From assembly GCA_005808475.1 (NCBI GenBank), contig SYLY01000098.1, forward strand, positions 1 to 64,000: DNA of 64,000 bases, written 5' to 3'. The notes under the pieces are model-generated. The model was not told where the DNA came from. It saw only the letters and a program-made list of their open reading frames with translations, and ran no database searches. This DNA is from Acidobacteriota bacterium. Lineage in GTDB: Bacteria; Acidobacteriota; Terriglobia; Bryobacterales; Bryobacteraceae. This document shows, piece after piece, positions 16,371 through 22,140 of the stretch (the first letter of the stretch is position 1; each line of letters starts with the position of its first letter). The translations under genes were made by a program, and so were the position numbers.

Positions 16371-17006
16371 TCAGCCGCCGGCCCAACCTGGCGCCGAGAT
16401 CCGGAATTGCGCCCCTTTACTTCCCGCCCGGTTGGCCGCGACGACCGTCCCGCCGCTCTTCTCCACGACGCTCCGCACGATGTGGAGCCCGAGTCCGCTG
16501 CGCTTGGCGCGTGTGCTGAAGCCGGGCTGGAAGATCCGTTCGAGATTCTGCGCGGAAATGCCTGGGCCATTGTCGGTCACCACGATCTCGACTCCGGCGG
16601 GTCCGCGCGAAGCCGCGATTTCCACCACGCCGTCCTCGCCGATCGCCTGCGCCGCGTTCAGGAACAAGTTGACGAAGACCCGCTCCCATGCCGCCGCGCC
16701 GCCGAGCAGCCTCAGTCCCGGCGCCACGTTCCGTTCGAACTCGATCCGCGCCCCTTTCACCGCCCCCAGGAAATCCGTGGCGAAATCGATCGCGTGGTCG
16801 AGGATCGAGTCGAGCTCCAGTTCCGCGTGGGTCTGCTCGAGAAAGCTCGACAGGATGCGCGAGCCCCGTTCCGCGCTACGGCGGATCGTGGCCGCCAGCT
16901 TGGCCTGCTTCGGGTCGTCCGAGAGCATGTCCGAGCAGTCGGCGATGGTCTCGAACACGTTGCTCAGATCGTGCGCCAGTCCGGCGATCGTCAAATCGGA
17001 CGCCAT
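16371..17006 (-). CDS. Stand-alone histidine kinase core (no sensor domain)
   Basis: A 211-residue protein consisting only of a dimerisation/phosphoacceptor helix pair and an ATPase domain. The H-box is GLAHDLSNVF with His12. The N-box is NLFLNAAQAI, G1 is DNGPGIS, the F-box is IFQPGFSTR and G2 is SGLGLHIV. It has no membrane segment, PAS or other input domain and no response regulator next to it. It begins 3 bases after the aroA stop, so it is in the same transcript. Resembles the NtrB-like kinase core. Input might come from a protein partner; no partner is encoded nearby. Confidence 0.8.
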   Translation of the reverse strand: MASDLTIAGLAHDLSNVFETIADCSDMLSDDPKQAKLAATIRRSAERGSRILSSFLEQTHAELELDSILDHAIDFATDFLGAVKGARIEFERNVAPGLRLLGGAAAWERVFVNLFLNAAQAIGEDGVVEIAASRGPAGVEIVVTDNGPGISAQNLERIFQPGFSTRAKRSGLGLHIVRSVVEKSGGTVVAANRAGSKGAQFRISAPGWAGG

Positions 17007-17009
17007 CGA

Positions 17010-18290
17010 TCAGCCTCGCAGGCGGCCCAGGATGTCGTAGAACTCCGGGAACGAGACGGATGCCGCATCGGCGTTGTGGACCGTGGTGGGTCCATCGGCG
17101 GCCAGGCCGGCCACGGCGAACGCCATCGCGATCCGGTGGTCGCCAAACGAGTCGACCGCGGCGCCGCGGAACCGCTGTCCGCCGGGGATGTGGAATCCAT
17201 CCACCGTCACTTCGATCGAGACGCCCATCCGCCCCATGTTCTCCGCGACGGTCGCGATGCGGTCGGTTTCCTTCACGCGAAGCTCGGCCGCGTCGCGCAC
17301 GGTGAGGCCCTTTCTGGACGCCGCGCCGAGCACGGCCAAGACCGGGATCTCGTCGATCAGCGCCGCGGTGACGGCCTTTTCGATCACTCCGCCTTCCACT
17401 TCGCGGCCAGTGATGGCGATGGTCCCCACCATCTCGCCCGCGGTTTGCGCGACATCCAACACCTTGATGCGCGCGCCGGCCGCCATCAGCCAGTCGATCA
17501 GCATCGTGCGCGACGGGCTCAAGCCCACTCCCTCGATAACGATGTTCGACCCCGGCAACAGGCAGGCCGCCACCAGAAAGAACGCCGCCGAGGAAAGATC
17601 GCCCGGAACGGCGAGATTGCGCGCTTCCAGCCGGGGCCGCCCCTCGATCGAGATCACCGGGCCTTTGCGGGAGATTTCCGCGCCGAACTCGCGCAACGCC
17701 ACTTCGGTGTGGTCGCGTGTTTGGACGTGCTCTACGACGCTGGTCACGCCTTCCGCGTGAAGGCCCGCGAACAGCACGCACGTCTTCACCTGCGCGCTGG
17801 CAACCGGCGGCTCGTAATGGATGGGCTTCAGCTTGGCGCCCTGAATTCGCATCGGAGGGAACTTGCCATCGCGCGCCTCGATGACCGCGCCCATCTCGCG
17901 GAGCGGCGTCATGATCCGCGCCATCGGCCGGTTCGACAGGGACTCGTCTCCGCCGATCTCGCACGGGAAAGGCTGCGCGGCGAGCATGCCCGAGAGCATG
18001 CGGATGGTGGAGCCGGAATTGCCGGCGTCGAGCTGCGCCGATGGCGCGCGGAAGCCGTCGAGCCCCTTGCCGTGGATGGTTACGGTGGAGCCGTCCTTGT
18101 CGATCCCGATCCCGAGCGCCCGCAGGCAGCCGAGCGTCGACTGGCAGTCCGCGCCGCCGGAGTAGTTCTCGATCCGGCTATCGCCTTCCGCCACGGCGGC
18201 GATCATCGCGTACCGGTGCGAAATCGACTTGTCGCCGGGGAGTCGAATGTTTCCGGAGAGGGTTTGAGCGGGTGTTACCGAAAACTGCAT
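17010..18290 (-). CDS. aroA: 3-phosphoshikimate 1-carboxyvinyltransferase (EPSP synthase)
   Basis: A 426-residue full-length AroA, the sixth step of the shikimate pathway (shikimate-3-phosphate plus PEP to EPSP), cytoplasmic. Signature motifs: LPGDKSISHRYAM at the N-terminus, LDAGNSGSTIRMLSGMLA (the GNSGT-like PEP site), AVPGDLSSAAFFLVAA, VKETDRIATVAENM and DHRIAMAFAVAGL. Length and motif spacing are normal. Start at 18290 is close behind a minus-strand TACAAT box. It leads a two-gene transcript with the histidine kinase core, an uncommon pairing. Confidence 0.96.
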   Translation of the reverse strand: MQFSVTPAQTLSGNIRLPGDKSISHRYAMIAAVAEGDSRIENYSGGADCQSTLGCLRALGIGIDKDGSTVTIHGKGLDGFRAPSAQLDAGNSGSTIRMLSGMLAAQPFPCEIGGDESLSNRPMARIMTPLREMGAVIEARDGKFPPMRIQGAKLKPIHYEPPVASAQVKTCVLFAGLHAEGVTSVVEHVQTRDHTEVALREFGAEISRKGPVISIEGRPRLEARNLAVPGDLSSAAFFLVAACLLPGSNIVIEGVGLSPSRTMLIDWLMAAGARIKVLDVAQTAGEMVGTIAITGREVEGGVIEKAVTAALIDEIPVLAVLGAASRKGLTVRDAAELRVKETDRIATVAENMGRMGVSIEVTVDGFHIPGGQRFRGAAVDSFGDHRIAMAFAVAGLAADGPTTVHNADAASVSFPEFYDILGRLRG

Positions 18291-18306
18291 TGCGGAGGGA
18301 TTTTTG

Positions 18307-18326
18307 ATTGTAGCAGCCGGTAGAAT
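18307..18326. promoter_or_regulatory. Divergent -10 boxes for aroA and the GH113-like gene
   Basis: Minus-strand TACAAT (18312-18307) ends 16 bases before the aroA start. Plus-strand TAGAAT (18321-18326) ends 7 bases before the ATG at 18334. The two starts are only 43 bases apart. Confidence 0.5.
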
Positions 18327-20001: not shown

Positions 20002-20356
20002 CCCTTTATCGCCAAACGCGCCCAGGTCCACTCCAACCAGCCACGAGGTCACGCAGCCGGCCGCGATGGGCCCGTGTTTCGAGGCCAATCGAAGCGATTC
20101 GAAACAGCACGGACGCCCGTGGCGCTATCGCAATGTCGCTGTGCGCGCGGTCGAGAATCACGGATGTCGCGGCGAGCGTTACCCGGTCGCCGAACTGGGT
20201 CGTGCGGTTCCCCGCTTGCCGGGCGTGAACTTCATTGTGGTGGGTGCTAGGAAGACGCTGGTGGTGAAGGAACAGAGGCTTCCGAAATCGAGTTCCGCCG
20301 GGCCGGACTCGGTGATCACTTCGTTGACGTTCAACTCGCCGCACGCCGGCAGGCTG
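20002..20356. other. Gene-poor gap, possibly a decayed minus-strand reading frame
   Basis: No intact gene is supported in these 355 bases. On the minus strand two short frames have protein-like stretches (GELNVNEVITESGPAELDF and SFTTSVFLAPTTMKF in one, GDRVTLAATSVILDRAHSDI in another) that would join if one frameshift were allowed. This could be the remnant of a small gene. I do not recognise the product and see no RNA gene or repeat here. Confidence 0.3.
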
Positions 20357-20977
20357 CTAATGCCAATGTGGCTGAAAGCTCGCCAAGCGCCGAATGGCCC
20401 GATCCAGACTACTCGCGCGCCTGCGTGCCTCTTCTGGGTTCCAAGACTGGCCGGCAAATTCGCAAAGGCATGTGTTGTACTCGCGCCCCACTCTTGCGGT
20501 GCTTTGAGCGGACGGCACGATCCGGAGCTTGACATCCCGGTCCGAGGAACGGGAACACAGATCGATCAGAGCCGCCTTGGGATCGCGCAATTGTTCGGGA
20601 ACCGGTGGCGAACAGCTTCGCAGGTACTTCTTGGGAATCTTCAGAAAGGTCGTGATTCCACTCCAATCGGCAAGCAACCAGGACTCGATTTCCCTGACGG
20701 CGACTCTGAACACCAGATTTGCATGGAGGTCTTCCCCGAGCCAGTCCTCGATCAAGGCGGACGGACATGCATGGTCGTCGAGGTCCGTAAGGAGGAAAAT
20801 CGGCCGGGAACGCGCCGCCTCGTTCCATCCGCGAATCCTCGTCCGAAGATAGCCGAAGCCCCCTCGCCGGTGCGTCGTGCCGATCGCAAACTTAGGAGCC
20901 GCATGACCCAAAACTCGTCTTGCGACGGACTCGCTGAGCTCGTCCTCGACGGCGATGTCGATCGGGATCGGATTCAT
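20357..20977 (-). CDS. DUF4276-like TOPRIM-type partner of the AAA ATPase
   Basis: A 206-residue protein. Visible motifs are an N-terminal acidic strand (DIAVEDELSES), IFLLTDLDDHACPS carrying a DxDD cluster, and REIESWLLAD. This arrangement fits DUF4276/RloB-like proteins, which are regarded as TOPRIM-like nuclease partners of OLD-type ATPases. The ATG at 20977 overlaps the ATPase stop (ATGA), so the two proteins are translationally coupled. A longer frame to 21325 lies inside the ATPase and was rejected. The pair probably works as one complex; a role in phage defence or nucleic-acid surveillance is inference. The family call rests on motif shape only. Confidence 0.72.
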   Translation of the reverse strand: MNPIPIDIAVEDELSESVARRVLGHAAPKFAIGTTHRRGGFGYLRTRIRGWNEAARSRPIFLLTDLDDHACPSALIEDWLGEDLHANLVFRVAVREIESWLLADWSGITTFLKIPKKYLRSCSPPVPEQLRDPKAALIDLCSRSSDRDVKLRIVPSAQSTARVGREYNTCLCEFAGQSWNPEEARRRASSLDRAIRRLASFQPHWH

Positions 20978-22125
20978 GCGCGGCCGATCGCCAGAGAAAG
21001 GCGTTCCGTCCTGGGAGGTGCGGTTAGGGGGAGGATCGCGTCGGCCGCGGTCAATCCCGCCCTCAGTTTCGCGGCTACTTCCGGTATGGAACTCGCGAGC
21101 AGAGCCTCCGTGCCTTCGCTCCCGGGACGCAGGAGCACCACCTCTTCGCCGCCGATGCCCGGATCGGACAACAGTTCGGCGCTGTGGGTGCTGACCAGAA
21201 TCTGGCGTTCTCCCTTCCGTTGAACCTGCGCAATCATTCCCGGGATTTGCCGAACGATCTCCGTGTGCAGCGAGAGTTCGGGTTCCTCGAGCAGCAGCGG
21301 CGCATCGCCTTCGAACAGAGACCAAAGCAAGCCGATCAGCCGTATGGTTCCGTCCGAAAACTGATCTTCTCTTTGCCGGGCGCCATTCACCCGCCAGTGC
21401 TCATAGATGGCCTCCAAATGCGGAACCCCGAGTTCGTCCTTCTCGAGCTTCAGTTGCTTCAGTTGTGGGACAACGGCCTTCAAGGCGCCTTCGATGCGGC
21501 GCAGCCTCGAGTCCCGAGTCTTCCGCGGGGCCCTCGCCACCGCCTCCATGAAGTTACGTCCAAAGGGGTCGTCGGACTGGCCGGCGCCTTGGGGCTCGGC
21601 GTGGCGCACCAATTGCGGGACCAAATGCAAATAGCGCACCTGCTCGAAGAACCTGGGCAATTCCCGAAACTCCGCATTAGCATTGACCTGTTCCAAGTGC
21701 GTCTGCGAGAGCCGTTCCGGGTCCCTGTTGTCCAGATCGTCCGGACGTTCGAGAACTGGCGACCCATCCCGGGAAACGCGTTCATACTCTACCGCCGGGC
21801 GGCGGCGCCTGCCTTGTTCCTGCTTTACTCCAACCTCGTATTTCCAAGTGGGTCCCGATCCGCCTTCGGCGACTTCAACCGAAATCCGAATTTCCGGATA
21901 CCGCCGGGCCGCCAGGCAGCGGACCTTGGAAAGTCCCCCCCGCATTTCAAAGGCGTGTTGCAGCCCCCCACCCGGCTTCGCAATGTCACGCAGAAAGCGG
22001 AACACATCCAGAAGGTTCGACTTGCCGGAAGCGTTCGGTCCAATGATGAACACCCTATCTTGTAGGCTGATATCCACCGTCCGAAAATTCCGCCAATTCG
22101 TCAATTCAAGACGGGTGAGTCGCAT
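20974..22125 (-). CDS. SMC/OLD-like AAA ATPase of a two-gene module
   Basis: A 383-residue ABC/SMC-type ATPase (AAA_21 class). It opens RLTRLELTNWRNF, then Walker A GPNASGKSN (residues 29-37). After an insert with little coiled coil come the signature-like FSDGTIRLIGLLWSLFEG, Walker B LLLEEPELSLH and the switch histidine STHSAELL. Proteins of this kind (OLD, RloA, AbiL, Gabija ATPase) pair with TOPRIM partners. The ATG at 22125 is preceded by a minus-strand TATAAT 9 bases upstream, so the longer frame to 22173 is not used. Expected to be cytoplasmic. Only the downstream DUF4276-like gene is linked to it. Confidence 0.85.
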   Translation of the reverse strand: MRLTRLELTNWRNFRTVDISLQDRVFIIGPNASGKSNLLDVFRFLRDIAKPGGGLQHAFEMRGGLSKVRCLAARRYPEIRISVEVAEGGSGPTWKYEVGVKQEQGRRRRPAVEYERVSRDGSPVLERPDDLDNRDPERLSQTHLEQVNANAEFRELPRFFEQVRYLHLVPQLVRHAEPQGAGQSDDPFGRNFMEAVARAPRKTRDSRLRRIEGALKAVVPQLKQLKLEKDELGVPHLEAIYEHWRVNGARQREDQFSDGTIRLIGLLWSLFEGDAPLLLEEPELSLHTEIVRQIPGMIAQVQRKGERQILVSTHSAELLSDPGIGGEEVVLLRPGSEGTEALLASSIPEVAAKLRAGLTAADAILPLTAPPRTERLSLAIGRA

Positions 22126-22134
22126 CAGAACCGT

Positions 22135-22140
22135 ATTATA
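22135..22140 (-). promoter_or_regulatory. -10 box of the AAA/DUF4276 operon
   Basis: A perfect TATAAT ends 9 bases before the ATG at 22125, giving a leader of only about 1-3 bases. It is the strongest -10 match seen in the window. Confidence 0.6.

Follow-up and report, generated by a model that had tools for sequence, protein, structure and literature searches.

Does a pair of overlapping genes in the genome of an Acidobacteriota bacterium form an antiphage system, in which an ATPase is coupled to a separate nuclease? The genes lie on contig SYLY01000098.1, of which positions 1 to 64,000 (64,000 nucleotides, hereafter the window) were analysed. A preliminary description made from the DNA letters had proposed a compact defence module of this kind, and its account of the gene structure proved correct: two open reading frames of 383 and 206 aa lie on the minus strand at the positions given below, and the TGA stop of the ATPase gene overlaps the ATG of the small-protein gene by 4 nt.

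22125..20974, minus strand: ATPase gene of the HEC-01A type, encoding an SMC/OLD-like ABC ATPase head (383 aa)
20977..20357, minus strand: putative TOPRIM-fold nuclease gene of the HEC-01B type (206 aa)

Both products match the models of a candidate system almost end to end, which assigns the pair to a candidate already catalogued and means that it is not new. Residues 1-378 of the ATPase align with positions 1-380 of 382 in the PADLOC HEC-01A model PDLC04180 (E 7.8e-162), and residues 1-205 of the small protein with positions 1-201 of 204 in the HEC-01B model PDLC04194 (E 2e-61). With these two matches and the adjacency of the genes, the window pair is, as judged from profiles, a full-length member of HEC-01, an antiphage candidate catalogued in PADLOC-DB 2.0; the window copy adds one member to that family. 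The abbreviation means Hma-embedded candidate; the set was assembled by guilt-by-embedding, and several of its members have proved antiviral, HEC-06 being named (PMC12988326). On HEC, the literature searched contained only this concept and the HEC-06 statement; it held no individual antiphage proof for HEC-01, and nothing relevant was found under DUF4276 or HEC-01. In Pfam the ATPase matches AAA_21 (E 1.4e-36), and in PADLOC it also matches the AbiLi model at 1e-22. The small protein had been called DUF4276-like; a Pfam match to DUF4276 (PF14103) does exist, but at 23.4 bits it stays under the curated cut-off of 30.2 bits. Up to E 1, the small protein matched neither RloB nor AbiLii in Pfam, NCBIfam or PADLOC, nor the AriB model in PADLOC, and comparison with PDB sequences, singly or as a profile, gave nothing significant. 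The same genome holds five further, divergent DUF4276/ATPase loci (L103, L104, L105, L106 and L107), which match other HEC-01 models; the ATPase match of a paralogue on its contig C25 contains an in-frame TAG.

The HEC-01 subfamily of the window pair is an obligate two-gene unit. A search of 84,980 species genomes retrieved 192 small-protein relatives, and the best 80 of these were taken on. Among these best 80 of 192, the gene immediately upstream, on the same strand, encodes an ATPase relative in 77 of the 77 checkable loci, namely those whose contig extends far enough upstream, and with few exceptions the intergenic gap is about -7 to +21 nt. This regularity, like the strength of the two PADLOC matches, lies far beyond what chance would give. 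Pairwise identities of the ATPases and of the small proteins rise and fall together (Mantel r 0.76, a value reached in 0 of 2000 permutations). The best 80 of 192 relatives are spread over 19 named phyla, with archaea among them. On the ATPase tree they imply 28 phylum changes, between the minimum of 18 and the shuffled mean of 45.6, a pattern suggestive of partly vertical descent inside phyla and jumps from one to another, a single jump being no proof since bins may hold stray contigs. The phages, plasmids and viral contigs that were searched contained no relative.

The predicted structure of the ATPase (pLDDT 93.7) matches the heads of SMC, Rad50, PtuA and AriA at Z 19-21. The Walker A motif, the Walker B motif with its EEPE and the switch His, all named beforehand, are present and are conserved across 74 aligned sequences.

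22018..22041, minus strand: Walker A, GPNASGKS, ATPase residues 29-36; G29, A32, G34, K35 and S36 invariant across 74 aligned sequences
21346..21360, minus strand: FSDGT, ABC-signature-like, ATPase residues 256-260; S257, D258 and G259 invariant (n = 74)
21277..21300, minus strand: Walker B, PLLLEEPE, ATPase residues 276-283, with the catalytic Glu pair E280/E281; both invariant (n = 74)
21184..21186, minus strand: switch His314 of the ATPase, kept in 73 of 74

The small protein carries the motifs VEDELSE, LTDLDD and RVAVREIESWLLAD, in agreement with the DxDD and REIESWLLAD motifs read there earlier. Structure prediction had been suggested as a check on its being a TOPRIM-like nuclease, and a TOPRIM fold was found in the model. 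The AlphaFold2 prediction, with 73 relatives as the alignment, has a pLDDT of 96 and the order strand 4-10, helix 13-26, strand 30-37, helix 40-54, strand 60-65, helix 72-80, strand 88-93, then helices. In the PDB, Foldseek placed two C-terminal regions of OLD proteins and the PARIS protein AriB in the top three ranks, the best with E 2.6e-3 and a probability of 0.98. With VIA-align the model reached Z 8.7 with AriB (8ux9), 8.6 with an OLD C-terminal region (6nk8), 8.1 with AriB (8v46) and 7.9 with an OLD C-terminal region (6njv), over 161-166 residues and against a background in which most unrelated Rossmann-like rows scored Z 5-7 and the uncharacterised protein 2p62 scored 8.2. The alignments start with model residue 4 on BpOLD 393 and model residue 2 on AriB 17; by this offset, assuming no early gap, E11 falls at BpOLD E400 and AriB E26. 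In BpOLD, metal A is held by E400, D455 and D457 and metal B by E404, T506 and E508, and K562 is catalytic (PMC6755086). In AriB, the Toprim mutant E26A shows no ribosome stalling, unlike the wild type (PMC12409363). The corresponding positions of the small protein are as follows.

20945..20947, minus strand: TOPRIM glutamate E11; present in 73 of the 73 sequences with a letter there
20777..20785, minus strand: TOPRIM DxD motif, D65-L-D67; D65 in 74 of 74, D67 in 73 of 74
20684..20692, minus strand: E96-I-E98, candidate metal-B ligands (cf. BpOLD T506/E508); in 74 of 74, both positions having belonged to the relative-search pattern
20576..20578, minus strand: K134, candidate catalytic lysine (cf. 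BpOLD K562); in 74 of 74, at a position outside the relative-search pattern

E11, D65, D67 and K134 are thus kept in 73-74 of 74 sequences and follow one another as in the BpOLD two-metal site; except for E11 and the DxD, individual metal ligands were assigned by sequence order and not from superposed coordinates. Where BpOLD has E404, the small protein has a conserved Ser and, directly after it, a Glu. This Ser, the Foldseek E of only 2.6e-3 and the inclusion of E96 and E98 in the search pattern were weighed against the TOPRIM assignment. The predicted fold, the OLD and AriB matches and the conserved catalytic-type residues support a TOPRIM fold in which the Glu and the DxD are conserved, and they give a reason at the level of structure for regarding the HEC-01 partner as a nuclease, an activity that we infer.

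A survey of homologous pairs for linkage to defence genes, which the preliminary description had also suggested, gave a divided answer: nine loci lie inside or beside R-M or Cas genes, and many others lie amid housekeeping genes. The pair sits between the methyltransferase and restriction subunits of type III systems (mod-[pair]-res) in L032, L033, L035, L036 and L082, which form four branches of the ATPase tree, L035 and L036 being near-copies. In L040 and L066 it sits between type I hsdS and hsdR (hsdS-[pair]-hsdR), in L030 it directly follows a type IIG enzyme, and in L092 it overlaps the end of cas6 by 4 nt. (This last locus, L092:8329-8847, is from an ANME-2 archaeon, and the overlap lies downstream of a weakly RAMP-like protein.) The nine R-M- or Cas-associated loci require 7 changes on the ATPase tree, and the R-M-embedded relatives fall outside the window's own acidobacterial clade. 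A near-versus-far comparison around the 77 relatives, which counted families and not proteins, found defence genes in both sets, also more than 6 kb away, and showed no gradient; therefore no enrichment is claimed. The neighbours of the relatives are mostly housekeeping genes. In at least six genomes of one order of Planctomycetota (L049, L070, L109, L110, L111 and L112) kdsB and pyrG enclose the pair; these copies have diverged in sequence and were apparently long inherited there. The pair is carried by 6 of the 98 sampled genomes of that order. In most of those without it kdsB adjoins pyrG directly, 19 of the sampled genomes having this arrangement (gap below about 175 nt). The comparison shows that the pair is a cassette that enters or leaves the operon with the flanking genes unbroken.

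At the window locus the pair looks acquired, given its low GC and GC3 and the rarity of relatives nearby. Its GC of 0.605 is the lowest of any equal-length stretch in the window (mean 0.662, sd 0.016), its GC3 is 0.69 against 0.84-0.86 in most neighbours, and a small-protein relative is present in 5 of 61 related genomes and missing from the other 56. Its neighbours are a decayed remnant, a GH113 gene and a DUF4440 gene.

20002..20356, minus strand: decayed, frame-shifted gene remnant of 355 bases, adjoining the pair
22140..22135, minus strand: TATAAT hexamer, conceivably the -10 box for leaderless transcription, 9 nt ahead of the ATPase ATG

The decay noted in this 355-base gap is real, in that two minus-strand frames of the remnant match a single reading frame in genome G003 (contig C106 near 16112, L108; 78% DNA identity over 58 bp). 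The remnant has no Pfam match of its own; by eye its sequence reads like an outer-membrane beta-barrel fragment. The locus had further been taken for an island that gains and loses genes. The foreign composition of the pair and the adjacent decayed gene agree with this, but none of the 38 other window genes matches a PADLOC defence model at 1e-10, so the window copy does not sit in a defence island. In the congener G001, separate contigs carry the GH113 block and the VWA gene, each beside other genes than here; the window junction is therefore specific to this genome, though not necessarily a simple insertion, and this comparison yielded no clean empty site. Directly upstream of the GH113 gene, at 16407-18323, lies a 638-aa open reading frame without a Pfam match, which has the same neighbour in G001 at about 50% identity. 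The strong TATAAT promoter of the earlier account did not hold up: the hexamer is a single one, with no sigma-70 site with a -35 box found near it and no evident Shine-Dalgarno between it and the ATG 9 nt away, so that it could at best give a leaderless transcript. No Rfam match was obtained in the region, and hence no known retron-type RNA family.

Taken as a whole, the evidence favours, with a probability of about 0.72, a two-gene HEC-01-type antiphage system composed of a sensor and restraint ATPase and a separate TOPRIM nuclease. The two-component defence candidate first proposed is thereby supported by the HEC-01A and HEC-01B matches, the structural matches to OLD and AriB, the catalytic-type residues and the R-M embedding of relatives, and from these we infer the antiphage function. 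The subfamily is both an obligate pair and a resident of R-M operons on several separate branches. Weighed against the defence reading were the lack of relatives in the phages, plasmids and viral contigs, the lack of another defence gene in the window, the housekeeping neighbours, the missing enrichment gradient and the position of the R-M-embedded relatives outside the acidobacterial clade. The window pair probably works like PARIS, in which AriA restrains AriB and frees it on infection (PMC12409363). On this model HEC-01A would probably form ATP-dependent dimers or oligomers and serve as sensor and restraint, and HEC-01B would be a separate metal-dependent TOPRIM nuclease with a two-metal site of E11, D65, D67, E98 and K134. 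In the uninfected cell the ATPase would be expected to keep the nuclease switched off. The phage would provide a cue, perhaps by interfering with restriction or DNA, that alters the ATPase, and the ATPase would then free or activate the nuclease; the freed enzyme would cut nucleic acid, either tRNA, the PARIS substrate, or DNA, that of OLD and Gabija, and the cutting would stop the infection, probably at a cost to the cell.

Because the pair turns up in R-M operons time and again, anti-restriction proteins suggest themselves as a candidate trigger; PARIS, for its part, responds to Ocr. The pair might thus guard restriction systems, its ATPase sensing phage anti-restriction activity in a PARIS-like manner and solitary copies such as that of the window guarding R-M systems encoded elsewhere in the genome. 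We regard this extension as tentative and rather doubtful; if true, it would explain the repeated, separate presence in type III and type I operons, and it offers a specific hypothesis for a catalogued but uncharacterised system.

Addiction modules are common in plasmids and phages, and the absence of the pair from the plasmid and phage collections searched speaks against its being a toxin-antitoxin-like addiction pair, with the HEC-01B nuclease as toxin, the ATPase as neutraliser, selfish maintenance as its rationale and phage protection as incidental. AAA ATPases do neutralise TOPRIM_OLD toxins in tested pairs (PMC10440598), and both the tight coupling of the two genes and their scattered phyletic spread would suit such a module; the recurrent R-M operon embedding and the near-full-length match to defence-candidate models favour defence, and we consider addiction unlikely. 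A cellular role apart from defence is retained as a rival since the pair can stay long in a housekeeping operon: it would serve nucleic-acid maintenance or nucleotide metabolism, as is the case for Cran1, an OLD protein of archaea; an OLD-family ATPase-nuclease that is essential to the cell cycle is known (PMC12796447). Beside this precedent, the diverged and apparently long-inherited kdsB-[pair]-pyrG copies in at least six genomes of one planctomycete order and the housekeeping surroundings of many relatives point that way. Its patchy presence (in only 6 of 98 genomes of that order, with kdsB and pyrG directly adjacent in 19 without it, and absent from 56 of the 61 genomes related to that of the window) and several separate R-M and Cas associations that lack a housekeeping explanation make this role improbable as well. 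Least of all do we expect the window copy to be a decaying passenger, captured with foreign DNA and since without function. It does adjoin a decayed gene, lacks a clear promoter and has a same-genome paralogue on C25 with an in-frame stop, but both of its reading frames are intact, the catalytic-type residues are all kept and the start/stop overlap is preserved.

Placed beside known systems, the defence pair proposed here shares with class 1 and 2 OLD proteins and Gabija GajA the TOPRIM fold (here predicted), the order of the two-metal residues and a related ATPase N-terminus, whereas ATPase and nuclease are fused there and separate in the window. Gabija further has a UvrD-like GajB helicase, and none lies beside the window pair; membership in Gabija was rejected on both grounds. 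With RloA/RloB and AbiLi/AbiLii it shares the combination of an AAA ATPase and a TOPRIM_OLD-related partner, and Rlo proteins are found in type I R-M operons (PMC10440598), as are the relatives L040 and L066; the small protein matches no RloB or AbiLii model, and this assignment was likewise rejected. PARIS (AriA/AriB; class 4 OLD) resembles it in having separate, adjacent ATPase and TOPRIM genes, in the rank of AriB among the top structural matches and in the offset that puts E11 on AriB E26. AriB has about 305 residues against the 206 of HEC-01B, and the sequence model, with no AriB match up to E 1, rejects membership in PARIS. With HEC-01 no difference was found, and the likeness extends to near-full-length matches for both genes and to their adjacency.
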